Source: Sphingomonas rosea
GTDB taxonomy: Bacteria; Pseudomonadota; Alphaproteobacteria; Sphingomonadales; Sphingomonadaceae
Direction: 5' to 3'
Assembly (NCBI RefSeq): GCF_039538065.1
Contig: NZ_BAABBR010000001.1
Coordinates: forward strand, 1,154,501 to 1,218,500
DNA: 64,000 nucleotides
Shown here: piece after piece, positions 59,992 through 64,000 of the stretch
Position numbering within the stretch: position 1 is the first letter of the stretch
How the letters are laid out: every line of letters starts with the position of its first letter
The notes under the pieces: model-generated
The model's database searches: none
Seen by the model: the letters and a program-made list of their open reading frames with translations, nothing else
Told to the model about the DNA's origin: nothing
Made by a program: the position numbers and the translations under genes

Positions 59992-60354
59992 CTAGGCCGA
60001 TCGAATGCCGCGGCGGACGCGTTGGCTGTGGCCGACTTGGGCCTGCAGTCCTTCGGCGATGACCGCGAGCGCGGCCTCGGGTTTGCAGGTCGCGCCGCAG
60101 ACGAAGATGTCGATGGCGGCAAACGCGTCCTCGGGCCAGCTGTGGATCGAGATGTGCGATTCCGCGAGCAGCGCGATTCCGGTCACGCCCTGCCCTTCGC
60201 CGAAGCTGTGCAGTCGGACCTCGAGCACCTTGGCGCCCGCCGCCGCCGCCGCGCGGCGCAGGATCCGCTCAATGAGGTCGGCGTCGTCGAGACCCTTGCC
60301 GCCGTTGAGGTCGGCGATGAGGTGCACGCTGTTCCAAGGCTGGTGGCCACTCAT
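59992..60354 (-). CDS. speD: S-adenosylmethionine decarboxylase proenzyme
   Basis: 120 residues, the short bacterial pyruvoyl class (SpeH/SpeD-like). Self-cleavage before S66 in the motif LLAESHISIHSWPEDAF creates the pyruvoyl cofactor; C86 in FVCGATC is the proton-donor cysteine. Makes decarboxylated S-adenosylmethionine, the aminopropyl donor. Last gene of the operon: its start overlaps the FAD lipoprotein gene by four bases. The donor it makes fits the spermidine synthase-like gene two positions upstream. Confidence 0.93.
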   Translation of the reverse strand: MSGHQPWNSVHLIADLNGGKGLDDADLIERILRRAAAAAGAKVLEVRLHSFGEGQGVTGIALLAESHISIHSWPEDAFAAIDIFVCGATCKPEAALAVIAEGLQAQVGHSQRVRRGIRSA

Positions 60355-61970
60355 GCCAGCGTCTCGAACGGGTGGCCGAGATGGCGCATCGCCGCTTCGG
60401 CCGCGCTGACCCCCGCGTGATGCGCTTCCTCGAACAGCGACAGACCGCCGACGTCCGAATGGGCGAGCATCAAGGGTGGCCGTACCGCCTCGTCCATCCG
60501 CGCGGGCGCACCGGCCATGAAGCCGGGCACCGGGCGGATCATCGCATGGCCCCAGCGCCAGACGTCGATCCGTTGAATCGCGCCGGCGAGCTCGGGATGC
60601 AACTGGAGGAGGTCGTCACGCACCAGCGCCTGCCAGCTTCCGAGCGTTCGTTCCAGCAGCAAGCGGCGGGCGTCCCGCGGTGCCATGGTCGACAGCGGCA
60701 AGTACCAAGTGAGGACAGTCGGCCCCGCGGCGGCGCTCGAACTCTGGTGGGTCGCGACGACGTAGCCGAGCGATTCGCTGGCGGTCGAGACATTGTCCCA
60801 GGCGAGCGGCGCCCCCTTCCCCCCCGGCGGGCGCGAGACCGTGACGTTGGCGACCACCCATGGGGCGTAGCTCTCCCCTCCGCGCGCGACACGCTCCGGG
60901 GCGACCCGGGCCGCAACGAAATGCGGCATGGCGAGGACGGCGGTGCCGGCGCGGATCCGGCGGCTCAGGCCCGCGCGATGATCGAAGACGTCGATGAGCA
61001 CTTTCGCCCCCTCGACCTTCGCCCGGAAGACGCTCTGGCCGGTCGCAAGGTGCGGCGCGACGCGCTCCGCCATCAGCCGCACCAGCCGCTGATTGCCTTC
61101 GGGCCACGTCAGTTCGCGGTCACCGTCGCCATTGGCGGCCCAGCCGCGGCGCGCGGCGAAATAGTGGATGCCGGCCCATGCCGAGACCTGATCGGGCTCG
61201 GTCCCGTAATCGTCCCGGCAGCAATAGCGGACGTAGGCGCGCAGCAAGGGCGAATGCCAGCCTTTCGCGTCGAGCCAGGCGGCAAAGCTCATGCGGTCGA
61301 GGGCGCGAAAGGAGGGATCGCGCGATGAATAAGCGCTCGGGACCGCGAAGGCGGGCTTGCCGTCGGCACCCACCGCCTTGCCGAAATTTGCCATCGCTGC
61401 ACCGAATGCCTCGCGCTCGGCCCGATCGGCGGCGCTCAGCCCGATGGCCGGATACAGCCCCTCCTGCCACTCGCCACGCCAGAACAGGCGCTCCTCGAGG
61501 TCGGCGCAGAGCTGATAGGGGTCGTAGACCGGCGCGCCATCGCGATCGCCGACGATCATGCCGAACTGGCGCAGCATGTGCTGGAGCGCTCTGGCCTCGC
61601 GGTTCGGGATGGGCAGATAATGCGCCCCGAGCGGATAAGCGGAGACGGCGTTGCGCCCGCCTCGGGCATTGCCGCCGGCTTGGTCCTCGAGCTCGATGAG
61701 GCGGAAATCGCGGAAGCCGGCGTCGGCCAGTCGCCATGCGGTCGCAAGGCCAGCCACCCCGCCACCGGCGATGAGCAGCGGCACATCCTCGACCGGACCG
61801 GTGGGTTCAGGGAAGCGACCGTCGCGAAGCTGATGCCCGCGCCGCAGGTCGGCCCCGCCAAGCTCCCCCGGCATGGGCGCGGCGTCGGCGGTGCAGCCGG
61901 AGACGGCGAGCATGCCCGCCCCCGCCCCGGCGGCCGCGAGCAGGCCCCGCCGGCTGATCTCAGCCTTCAT
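60351..61970 (-). CDS. Tat-exported FAD-dependent oxidoreductase lipoprotein
   Basis: 539 residues. The N-terminus combines a twin-arginine signal (ISRRGLLAAAGAGAG) with a lipobox VSGC (C26), so a folded flavoprotein is exported and anchored. The FAD-binding Rossmann motif GGGVAGLATAWRLADAGF begins at about residue 69, followed by LEDQAGGNARGG, as in amine-oxidase/NAD(P)-binding_8 flavoproteins. The substrate is unknown; a polyamine or related amine is suggested by the operon. Overlaps speD by 4 bp and the synthase gene by 11 bp. Confidence 0.88.
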   Translation of the reverse strand: MKAEISRRGLLAAAGAGAGMLAVSGCTADAAPMPGELGGADLRRGHQLRDGRFPEPTGPVEDVPLLIAGGGVAGLATAWRLADAGFRDFRLIELEDQAGGNARGGRNAVSAYPLGAHYLPIPNREARALQHMLRQFGMIVGDRDGAPVYDPYQLCADLEERLFWRGEWQEGLYPAIGLSAADRAEREAFGAAMANFGKAVGADGKPAFAVPSAYSSRDPSFRALDRMSFAAWLDAKGWHSPLLRAYVRYCCRDDYGTEPDQVSAWAGIHYFAARRGWAANGDGDRELTWPEGNQRLVRLMAERVAPHLATGQSVFRAKVEGAKVLIDVFDHRAGLSRRIRAGTAVLAMPHFVAARVAPERVARGGESYAPWVVANVTVSRPPGGKGAPLAWDNVSTASESLGYVVATHQSSSAAAGPTVLTWYLPLSTMAPRDARRLLLERTLGSWQALVRDDLLQLHPELAGAIQRIDVWRWGHAMIRPVPGFMAGAPARMDEAVRPPLMLAHSDVGGLSLFEEAHHAGVSAAEAAMRHLGHPFETLA

Positions 61971-63498
61971 AATGCGACCATTCCTGCGAGAAGGACCGCA
62001 CCAGCGCCTGGTTGTCGAGCCGGTTCACGGGCGTCGGCACCCGCGCCATGTCGGGCGCGAAGTCGAACATCATCCGCTCGCTCGCCGGGGTCAGGAAGCG
62101 GAGGTTGGGCGGAAGCCGGACGGCATCGCCGATCGGCCGGCGCGCGGCCATGGTGAACCCCCATTCGCCGAAACTCGGCACGTAGGCGTGGTAGCCGCGC
62201 GCCTGGAACCCCGCCGCCTCGAGCGTGCTCGCCACGGTCCAGTAGCTCCGCGGCGCGACCAGCGGCGAGGTGCTCTGGACGCTCATCATGCCCTCGGGCT
62301 TCAGGAGCCGCGCGACCTCGCGGTAGAAGCTTTCGGTATAAAGCTTCCCGAGCGAGAATTCGGTGGGATCGGGAAAGTCGATCAGAATGGCATCGAAGGC
62401 CGCATGTGGCTGGCGCACCCAGCGGAAGGCATCGGCATTGACGACCTGAAGCCTTGGCGAGGTCAGCGAGCGTTCGTTGAGCGCGCTCAGTTGCGGCGTG
62501 TTGCGGAACAGCGCGGTCATGGCGGGATCGAGATCGACGAGGGTCACGCTCCGCACGCGTTGGTCGCGCAACACCTCGCGCGCGGCGAGCCCGTCGCCGC
62601 CGCCCAGGATCAGCACACGGGCGGGGTTCGCGACGCGCCCGAGCACGGGCCAGACCAGCGCCTCGTGATAGCGATATTCGTCACGCGAGGAGAATTGGAG
62701 GTTGCCATTGAGGTACAGCCGCAGGTCGTTGTCGCGGCGGGTGAGGACGATCCGCTGATAGGGGGTCGAGCTCGCGTAGATGACGGGCTCGTTGTAGAAG
62801 GCGACCTCGGACCAGCGCTGGATCTTCTCGGCCCAGGCCATGCCCGCGACCAGGCTCGCCGCGCTGAGCAGGGCGGCGACCAGCTCGAGCCGCATCCGCC
62901 GCTCGCGCCGAAGGACGACCAGCAGCGCGATCGCCACGGCGACGTTGAGCAGCCCGAACAGAAAGCCGGTTCGGATGAGGCCGAGCTTGGGGACCAGCAG
63001 CAGGGGGAACAGCAAGGACGCCACCAGCGCACCGACATAATCGTAGGTCAGCACGGTCGAGACCAGCTCGCGCAGCGCGAAGCGGTGGCGCAGGATGCGG
63101 ATCAGCAGCGGGATCTCGAGCCCGACCAGGATTCCGATCAGCAGCACCAGCCCGTAGAGCGCGACGCGAAAATCGCTGGCGTAAGGGAACAGCAGGAACA
63201 ATGCGGCCGCAAGCCAGCCGCCGACCAGCGCCAGCAGCACCTCGACCCGGACGAACGCGAGCAGTTCGTCCTCGCGGATGTAGCGCGACAGCCAGCTGCC
63301 GATCCCCATGGCGAAGAGATAGGTGCCGATGACGGTCGAGAATTGGGTGACGCTGTCGCCGAGCAGGTAGCTGGCGAGCGTTCCGGCGAGCAGCTCGTAG
63401 ATGAGGCCGCAGGTCGCGACCACGAACACGGAGAAGAGGAGGATGAGGGCAAGGCGGGGCTGTCCGTCGTCGACCCTTTCCTCGGCGAGGTCAGCCAT
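61960..63498 (-). CDS. Membrane-anchored spermidine synthase-like protein
   Basis: 512 residues. The N-terminal about 215 residues hold some seven membrane helices (ILLFSVFVVATCGLIYELLAG; LYGLVLLIGILVGLEIPLLI). The C-terminal half is a spermidine/spermine synthase domain: FSSRDEYRYHEALVWP, VLILGGGDGLAAREVL, VTLVDLDP, and FDAILIDFPDPTEF where the aspartates bind the donor and amine. Predicted aminopropyltransferase held at the inner membrane, catalytic part on the cytoplasmic side. Overlaps the DUF350 gene by 8 bp and the FAD gene by 11 bp. Confidence 0.92.
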   Translation of the reverse strand: MADLAEERVDDGQPRLALILLFSVFVVATCGLIYELLAGTLASYLLGDSVTQFSTVIGTYLFAMGIGSWLSRYIREDELLAFVRVEVLLALVGGWLAAALFLLFPYASDFRVALYGLVLLIGILVGLEIPLLIRILRHRFALRELVSTVLTYDYVGALVASLLFPLLLVPKLGLIRTGFLFGLLNVAVAIALLVVLRRERRMRLELVAALLSAASLVAGMAWAEKIQRWSEVAFYNEPVIYASSTPYQRIVLTRRDNDLRLYLNGNLQFSSRDEYRYHEALVWPVLGRVANPARVLILGGGDGLAAREVLRDQRVRSVTLVDLDPAMTALFRNTPQLSALNERSLTSPRLQVVNADAFRWVRQPHAAFDAILIDFPDPTEFSLGKLYTESFYREVARLLKPEGMMSVQSTSPLVAPRSYWTVASTLEAAGFQARGYHAYVPSFGEWGFTMAARRPIGDAVRLPPNLRFLTPASERMMFDFAPDMARVPTPVNRLDNQALVRSFSQEWSHYEG

Positions 63499-63700
63499 GA
63501 ACCGCCGCGGCGATGATCGTCGAGATGCCGATGGCGACCGAGCCGGCGAGCAGGGCCACCGCGAGGTTCTTCCGCTCGATGATCTCGCGCCACAGGTCGC
63601 CCGGGGTCAGCTTGTCGACGAGGACGAAACTGAACACGAAGATGACGATCCCCATGAAGGCGTAGAGCAGGGTCGCGAGGAAGGTGTTGATGGAAAGCAT
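63491..63700 (-). CDS. DUF350 (YjfL-like) membrane protein
   Basis: 69 residues with two membrane helices (FLATLLYAFMGIVIFVFSFVLV and AVALLAGSVAIGISTIIAAAV) separated by the conserved DKLTPGDLWREIIERKN loop, the DUF350 signature. YjfL of E. coli, of the same family, lies beside a PspA paralogue. The stop overlaps the synthase gene start. Half the length of two-repeat DUF350 proteins. Confidence 0.92.
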   Translation of the reverse strand: MLSINTFLATLLYAFMGIVIFVFSFVLVDKLTPGDLWREIIERKNLAVALLAGSVAIGISTIIAAAVHG

Positions 63701-63715
63701 GGCCGCATGTCCTCC

Positions 63716-63859
63716 TTATTTGTGGGTTGGGCCGTAGAAGCCGGACGAGCTGCGCCGGCTTCCGTCGGCGAACGGAGACCAGGCGTAATAGCTCGCGGCG
63801 ACCGAGGCGGTGAGCATGGCGAGGCACCAGAGCGCGAAGAGGAAGACCCGGTTGCTCAC
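63716..63859 (-). CDS. Small single-pass membrane protein, 47 aa
   Basis: GTG start overlapping the upstream stop (GTGA). One hydrophobic helix (FLFALWCLAMLTASVAASYY) is followed by a short Ser/Arg-rich tail (FADGSRRSSSGFYGPTHK). No family recognised. Location between DUF4178 and DUF350 genes with overlapping or near-touching ends marks it as part of the same membrane system. Confidence 0.75.
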   Translation of the reverse strand: MSNRVFLFALWCLAMLTASVAASYYAWSPFADGSRRSSSGFYGPTHK

Positions 63860-64000
63860 CGCCGGTACCCGCTCTTCGATGCCTGCGCCTTGCGCCACAT
63901 CCAGACGGCGATCGGCGCGAAGATCAGCAGCATGAACATGGCCATGTTGCCGAAGAAGACCCCGCCCGGGGTGATGGTGAAGCGAAGATTGATCGATTCG
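63856..64000 (-). CDS. DUF4178-type protein, C-terminal end only
   Basis: The first 47 codons at the window edge read, in frame, a beta-strand stretch (INLRFTITPGGVFFGN) and a terminal membrane helix (MAMFMLLIFAPIAVWMW) ending KSGYRR. This matches the end of DUF4178 proteins, which combine beta domains with a C-terminal membrane anchor and co-occur with DUF350 and spermidine synthase-like genes. The rest lies outside the window. Confidence 0.62.
   Translation of the reverse strand, partial: ESINLRFTITPGGVFFGNMAMFMLLIFAPIAVWMWRKAQASKSGYRR

Follow-up and report, generated by a model that had tools for sequence, protein, structure and literature searches.

A conserved C-terminal lysine as candidate acceptor of the membrane spermidine synthase-like enzyme in an operon of Sphingomonas rosea

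A stretch of 64,000 nucleotides of the Sphingomonas rosea genome (contig NZ_BAABBR010000001.1, positions 1,154,501 to 1,218,500; hereafter the window) ends in an operon encoding, among others, an S-adenosylmethionine (AdoMet) decarboxylase (SpeD), a spermidine synthase-like protein with seven transmembrane segments (7-TM SpeE), and proteins of the DUF350 and DUF4178 families. Between the genes of the last two lies a small overlooked gene for a tail protein, whose terminal lysine may be the enzyme's missing target, a proposal that can be tested. The chances are, in our judgement, about even that decarboxylated AdoMet made by SpeD is used by the 7-TM SpeE to aminopropylate this lysine. The operon class and the idea of an acceptor other than putrescine are already known.

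Conservation of the gene set and of the terminal lysine

An alignment built from 20 membrane SpeE proteins served to collect loci, and the best 80 of 517 named matches were retained together with the window locus (81 loci). These 80 span Sphingomonadales, Burkholderiales, Bacteroidota, Acidobacteriota, Verrucomicrobiota, Leptospiraceae and others; among the matches listed, the closest named relatives of the window SpeE are Novosphingobium proteins (77-78% identity). Profile searches detected the flavin adenine dinucleotide (FAD) protein of the operon in 74 of the 81 loci, DUF4178 in 71, DUF350 in 67, SpeD in 50 and SPFH in 39, some of the absences being contig ends. This recurrence of the families around 80 membrane-SpeE loci of several phyla shows that the gene set is more than a chance association. 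The original prediction had named a lack of joint conservation outside this strain as the finding that would count against it, and on this point it stands. In a sample of 299 genomes of Pseudomonadota, 31 exceeded the membrane-SpeE cut-off, and all 20 genomes with DUF4178 were among these 31.

On reading the DUF4178-DUF350 interval, a small open reading frame (ORF) was seen in many loci. Near its N-terminus the product has a single hydrophobic stretch; the polar sequence that follows is frequently rich in Ser, Gly, Arg or His, and the stop codon directly follows a lysine. The window protein ends in GPTHK, and examples of ends in other loci are GRFYHK, SSYHK, RWFGGK and QRYYHK. Between phyla, the tail proteins align little apart from the final Lys, which mostly stands in His-Lys or Gly-Lys. 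A scan of the small ORF against Pfam and NCBIfam gave zero matches. In loci that lack the ORF, mostly those of Burkholderiales, the DUF4178 protein itself ends in a transmembrane (TM) segment followed by runs such as ...SSGGSYGGYSSGGSHK; in Zoogloea and Duganella it is placed before a divergent speD.

A Lys-ended tail was found in all 70 loci of the cluster-based set, and with L093 in all 71 loci whose DUF4178 was positive by hidden Markov model (HMM). The 70 tails comprise 47 separate proteins (37 ending in HK, 10 in GK) and 23 fused to DUF4178 (all HK), against a background of 633 gene picks longer than 150 amino acids (aa) from the same loci, 43 of which end in K, none in HK and four in GK. 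For the 10 loci without DUF4178 beside SpeE, DUF4178 was located elsewhere in the genome every time (10/10): in seven an HK tail adjoins the distant gene, in a Vicinamibacteria genome (G302) a longer protein ending in RFGGK follows it, and in the last two the contig stops inside it.

All 31 membrane-SpeE genomes of the 299-genome sample likewise have a Lys-ended tail, carried by small proteins of the THK, HK, RIK, GGK or GSGK type, by fused HK ends, or by longer proteins ending in RGK, RRGK, SGK, FGGK, FGGGK or IRGGK. Six of the longer carriers have a lipobox (G216, G162, G290, G168, G052, G057), two have their start outside the region examined (G040, G140), and for two anchored ones (G007, G037) the part read shows no clear lipobox. 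As PMC11237479 includes a lipoprotein in its Shewanella-type operon, the longer carrier is taken to be that lipoprotein. In the phylum of G302, 52 genomes exceeded the cut-off; 28 of the 30 loci fetched hold a tail (27 by the tail rule and L267 by eye), some of these genomes possibly coinciding with named loci. The two tail-less loci are a contig end (L252, on the contig of L068) and a copy with no adjoining DUF350 or DUF4178 (L263). In this phylum candidates were chosen regardless of their last residue, and of 34 hydrophobic ORFs, 28 ended in K.

The fused tails of Burkholderiales (L064, L080, L085, L109) often show three Cys directly after the TM segment, e.g. CSSCDPQKENC, which would fit a periplasmic disulphide. 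Next to the DUF4178 gene of G302, an ORF (L158:5799-6512) looks PspA-family-like by eye and is a candidate only.

The end residue differs beside another polyamine enzyme

The Escherichia coli proteins YjfC and YgiC bear the RefSeq name 'peptide--spermidine ligase'. This name reportedly stems from the work of Pederick et al. in 2023, in which triglycine is said to have served as model peptide, the natural substrate being unknown. Their neighbours YjfM and YgiB (DUF1190) have Ser/Gly/Arg-rich tails with the last residues HWGG and SMGG, and are encoded just upstream of the ligase genes in E. coli K-12 (yjfM, L221:6388-7026; ygiB, L222:2745-3416). Given a Gly-Gly end after a Ser/Arg-rich run, both look like natural substrates of these ligases.

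In 25 DUF1190 loci (22 genomes), a YjfC/YgiC relative lies alongside in 20 and a YjfL-like DUF350 gene in 14; the five with no ligase match alongside are L232, L243, L244, L246 and L247. The DUF1190 proteins beside a ligase end in GG (14), GS (3) or SS (2), one end is not readable (L234), and none ends in K. Across the 25 loci, closer reading gave GS for L230, GG for L232 and SS for L242. The end residue thus appears to track the enzyme, with a carboxyl end for the ligase and an amine end for the aminopropyltransferase, a correlation that we regard as the strongest argument for the tail as substrate.

The E. coli systems resemble the window operon in that yjfC and yjfM lie beside the DUF350 gene yjfL, in that an exported-looking Ser/Gly/Arg-rich tail protein is present, and in that a polyamine is joined to a peptide. 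They differ in chemistry (ATP-grasp ligation to the carboxyl end), in tails ending in Gly-Gly rather than Lys, and in that ygiBC has no adjoining DUF350 gene.

Catalytic domain and orientation of the membrane SpeE

The 7-TM SpeE matches Spermine_synth (105.5 bits, cut-off 22.9) and the membrane polyamine aminopropyltransferase model NF002956 (PRK03612; 667.8 bits, cut-off 472, residues 14-510), and stays below the cut-off of TIGR00417, spermidine synthase SpeE (114.9 bits vs 249.55). Alignments covered 20 of the 31 over-cut-off genomes (A1), 54 of the 81 loci (A2) and 42 of the 81 loci (A3), with a control of 20 soluble forms, a subset of its matches. D374, D377, Y277, H278 and the GGGDG motif are invariant in the 20 and in the 54 membrane SpeE sequences and align with the soluble forms. 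These two Asp, the Tyr/His pair and the donor motif are presumably the catalytic and donor-binding residues of aminopropyltransferases, which suggests that the 7-TM SpeE is a true aminopropyltransferase able to use the donor.

In a fold search with the catalytic domain only, the closest solved structure was the Thermus thermophilus aminopropyltransferase (1uir, 3anx). Unlike the window protein, that enzyme was solved as a soluble form with no TM domain, and the title of 3anx (triamine/agmatine aminopropyltransferase) refers to free acceptors. Loop charges and cysteine content favour, on balance, a SpeE domain facing the periplasm. An apparent DUF350-SpeE gene fusion in L063 and L077 was rejected, the long N-termini being another frame of the DUF350 gene.

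SpeD and the flavoprotein

SpeD matches AdoMet_dc (112.4 bits, cut-off 25) and TIGR03330 (113 bits, cut-off 75.65), and keeps the pyruvoyl Ser66 together with His71, Pro74 and Cys86. PMC10407285 describes the processing Ser, His and Cys, and a Pro that is not conserved in arginine decarboxylases; by our own reading, Pro74 is the Pro marked in its Figure 8. Ser, His and Pro are present in 45 of 45 operon SpeDs. With this Pro and the TIGR03330 match, an ornithine or arginine decarboxylase as described in that source is unlikely. The residue equivalent to Cys86 is Cys in 32 and Ser in 13 of the 45. By gene picks, speD and speE are on opposite strands in 11 of the 45 loci (L064, L079, L084, L085, L090, L095, L103, L109, L113, L115, L116), and speD is therefore a separable unit there.

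The FAD protein matches Amino_oxidase (PF01593; 33.5 bits, cut-off 19.8); of three relatives scanned, one (L116) has no PF01593 match. A twin-arginine translocation (Tat) signal was read from SRRGLL and the lipobox AVSGC, the TIGR01409 score (14.9) being under its cut-off of 16.7. A strict pattern of RR plus hydrophobic run occurs in 42 of 68 FAD proteins, a few of these matches lying inside the FAD-binding motif and not in a signal, and the first Arg of the Tat-like motif is invariant in 42 aligned FAD proteins. Foldseek matches include protoporphyrinogen oxidase, the spermidine dehydrogenase SpdH, monoamine oxidase and putrescine oxidase; SpdH (7d9j) is the best PDB sequence match of the FAD profile (profile positions 8-116) and third best by fold (16% identity in the fold match). 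The protein is thus predicted to be an amine oxidase-fold flavoprotein on the tail's side of the membrane. To this extent the original proposal of a periplasmic flavoprotein is supported. The FAD profile found zero matches in the stretches around eight lipoprotein-type operons (L118-L122, L124, L125, L137), which keep tail and SpeE.

The FAD gene is followed, in loci of Bacteroidota and some others, by the gene of a conserved membrane protein (L053:13156-14202 and 16 further; cluster c6; 17/81 by HMM). The 16 copies of the cluster measure 340-456 aa; two copies scanned had no Pfam match, and one scanned had no NCBIfam match.

Polyamine routes in the host genome

The host genome (2.68 Mb, one contig, 99.96% completeness) contains one AdoMet decarboxylase match and one spermidine-synthase domain match, both in the operon. 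Elsewhere (G000:C1:2026912-2029161), an ornithine decarboxylase (ODC)-fold decarboxylase match lies 670 bases from a deoxyhypusine synthase-like (DHS-like) match on the same strand. The latter passes NF002699, 1,9-bis(guanidino)-5-aza-nonane synthase (513.6 bits, cut-off 500); all NCBIfam matches of the decarboxylase are under their cut-offs, and its tentative assignment to ornithine is our own reading. No match to PF16653 (homospermidine synthase / carboxyspermidine dehydrogenase) was found in the genome (0/1). PMC10407285 states that SpeY, a homologue of deoxyhypusine synthase, is able to produce homospermidine; with this precedent and the gene pair, long polyamines need not come from SpeD and SpeE, and a SpeD-independent route is apparent. 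The lone SpeD and SpeE coexist with a gene pair that might supply the long polyamines, which makes the originally proposed acceptor other than free putrescine likely. The membrane-associated acceptor postulated with it also gains support, the Lys-ended tail being a concrete candidate.

Operon layout

The six minus-strand genes at 59992-64000, mostly overlapping, were confirmed by ORFs and family profiles (Table 1). Four of their five junctions overlap (by 4, 11, 8 and 4 bases), and the sole gap, of 15 bases, separates DUF350 from the small ORF. The frame of the latter is open to 63898 (63716-63898), the shorter form in Table 1 being more likely. From its 5' end, the operon reads SPFH+SHOCT, short DUF4178, long DUF4178, 47-aa single-pass protein, DUF350, 7-TM SpeE, Tat-type FAD protein and SpeD. 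Profile scores were 78.6 bits for DUF4178 (cut-off 25), 53.4 bits for DUF350 (cut-off 26), and 221.7 (Band_7_1) and 29.4 bits (SHOCT) for the SPFH protein. Extension past 64000, as originally advised, added a second DUF4178 gene and SPFH+SHOCT to the operon; of the partners then expected, PspA, YjfK and ATP-grasp proteins were absent among the nine proteins scanned, the rest of the 20 kb stretch fetched here being unscanned.

Table 1. Operon features, in window numbering (positions above 64000 lie past its end)
Feature	Positions	Strand	Remarks
SpeD, class 1b AdoMet decarboxylase, 120 aa	59992-60354	minus	family profiles and kept residues
FAD amine-oxidase-fold protein, 539 aa	60351-61970	minus	predicted exported; Tat-like SRRGLL and lipobox
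7-TM spermidine-synthase-like protein, 512 aa	61960-63498	minus	TM part aa 13-221; aminopropyltransferase fold aa 228-512
DUF350 (YjfL-like) small membrane protein, 69 aa	63491-63700	minus	
Small single-pass tail protein, 47 aa	63716-63859	minus	ends ...GFYGPTHK; GTG start; 4-base overlap with DUF4178 stop
C-terminal lysine codon	63719-63721	minus	proposed acceptor
Long DUF4178 gene, 456 aa	63856-65226	minus	zinc-ribbon-like N-terminus; 3' part 63856-64000 inside window
Short DUF4178 gene	65223-65879	minus	outside window
SPFH/Band_7_1 + SHOCT gene	65881-66882	minus	outside window

Relation to known systems

Section 19 of Ravi et al. (PMC11237479) links 7TM-SpeE with DUF350, DUF4178, band-7/SHOCT, AdoMet decarboxylase and polyamine oxidase; for the aminopropylation of other substrates it refers to Li et al. 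2019. The window operon belongs to this class, as its 7TM-SpeE occurs with DUF350 and DUF4178 and a band-7/SHOCT protein replaces the PspA-CesT/Tir dyad. The same genes form the PSP-associated polyamine operons of that section, for which aminopropylation of other substrates is proposed, so that the set is not undescribed, as had been supposed. PspA-type operons are treated there as a sister class of the band-7/SHOCT ones; the PspA-like pathway of the original prediction is thus not supported as stated, the partner here being SPFH+SHOCT. The operon passages do not include the small tail protein, and the words lysine and periplasm are absent from the main text. In the searchable open-licence literature, no description was found of the terminal lysine, its several carriers, the Gly-Gly contrast or the outward topology.

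An MFS/SpdSyn fusion occurring with AdoMet decarboxylase and DUF350 was reportedly described by Li and co-workers in 2019, who are said to have proposed an acceptor other than putrescine without naming it, and to have found the fused enzymes unable to substitute for spermidine synthase. This system shares the enzyme pair and DUF350 with the window operon. Hypusine or deoxyhypusine on eIF5A resembles our proposal in placing a polyamine part on the lysine of one protein, but it involves an aminobutyl group from spermidine, a soluble enzyme and an internal Lys.

Proposed mechanism and alternatives

SpeD would make decarboxylated AdoMet, from which the 7-TM SpeE would transfer an aminopropyl group to the C-terminal lysine of a flexible, membrane-anchored tail; the carrier would be the 47-aa protein here, and the DUF4178 end or a longer exported protein in other lineages. 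The side chain of lysine resembles putrescine in being a butylamine; its aminopropylation would yield an N-(3-aminopropyl)lysine end and so graft a polyamine on a membrane protein. The tail, and more probably than not the SpeE domain as well, would face the periplasm. There the Tat-type flavoprotein, with its amine-oxidase fold, could oxidise or trim the added group; DUF350 may help the donor or the tail to pass across or along the membrane, and DUF4178 and SPFH, presumably on the cytoplasmic face, may couple the modification to membrane maintenance. A wider version, which we hold only tentatively, places the modification in the periplasm: decarboxylated AdoMet would cross the inner membrane via DUF350 and/or the 7-TM part, and DUF350 systems would decorate exported C-termini by two chemistries, aminopropyl transfer to Lys and spermidine ligation to Gly-Gly.

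Several points weigh against these proposals. The search for separate tails demanded a final K, and the survey tails were picked by eye or by pattern, so the weight of the evidence lies on the HK/GK share, the fused cases and the end-blind set. Two tails end in RIK, so HK/GK is not universal, and related genomes in the surveys are not independent of one another. As to orientation, acidic and basic residues are nearly equal in loop 4-5 of SpeE (3.1 vs 3.7), and in the larger set of 54 sequences Cys is less strongly depleted (0.34%, with none in 18 of them). SPFH proteins, cytoplasmic-looking, are equally Cys-poor (0.35%), so Cys depletion is no proof of compartment; the FAD domain is not Cys-depleted (1.05%). 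Peptide-spermidine ligases are ATP-grasp enzymes, and the tail in that class would therefore be modified before export. We know of no precedent for the export of decarboxylated AdoMet that a periplasmic reaction requires. Tail aminopropylation itself is proposed from sequence, no modification having been seen, and a C-terminal Lys also fits peptidoglycan anchoring.

The acceptor might instead be a small molecule or a lipid, which the 7-TM domain could present, the Lys tail being only a partner, activator or docking element of SpeE. The tail gene does travel with the enzyme genes, while its modification is a deduction. In a docking element, however, one would expect conservation to extend beyond the last one or two residues, and the last residue differs with the enzyme type (Lys here, mostly Gly-Gly beside ligases); we regard this explanation as unlikely. 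Braun's lipoprotein is joined to peptidoglycan through its C-terminal Lys, and the tail, ending in Lys on an exported or membrane-anchored protein, could similarly tie membrane, DUF4178 and cell wall together while aminopropylation targets something else. The membrane or lipoprotein carrier, the flexible Ser/Gly linker and the predicted periplasmic side would suit such an anchor, but the position of the tail gene among those for SpeE, DUF350 and DUF4178, and the mostly Gly-Gly ends beside ligases, would not, and a wall anchor seems rather improbable.

An ordinary spermidine operon with a membrane-bound synthase could be argued from the genome's only SpeD and only SpeE domain, the ODC-fold decarboxylase and the kept catalytic residues. 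It is made very improbable by the score below the TIGR00417 cut-off, by the DHS-like polyamine synthase, which exceeds its own cut-off and is encoded close to the decarboxylase, and by the fused enzymes that reportedly fail to replace spermidine synthase. Equally far down we place the oxidation of the unmodified tail lysine to an aldehyde for cross-linking by the exported flavoprotein, with SpeD and SpeE only tuning polyamine levels. Its amine-oxidase fold, with monoamine oxidase, putrescine oxidase and SpdH among the top matches, and its predicted location would allow this, but the eight lipoprotein-type operons retain tail and SpeE where the FAD profile found nothing, and the idea is hardly credible.

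Significance

Ever since membrane spermidine-synthase fusions were proposed to act on something other than putrescine, their acceptor has been an open question. That question now has a single residue to test: the end residue persists across phyla although its carrier varies, and it differs beside another polyamine chemistry. If true, aminopropylation of the tail would add a new modification of lysine, possibly the first periplasmic aminopropyl transfer, and it would suggest YjfM and YgiB as natural substrates of the E. coli peptide-spermidine ligases.

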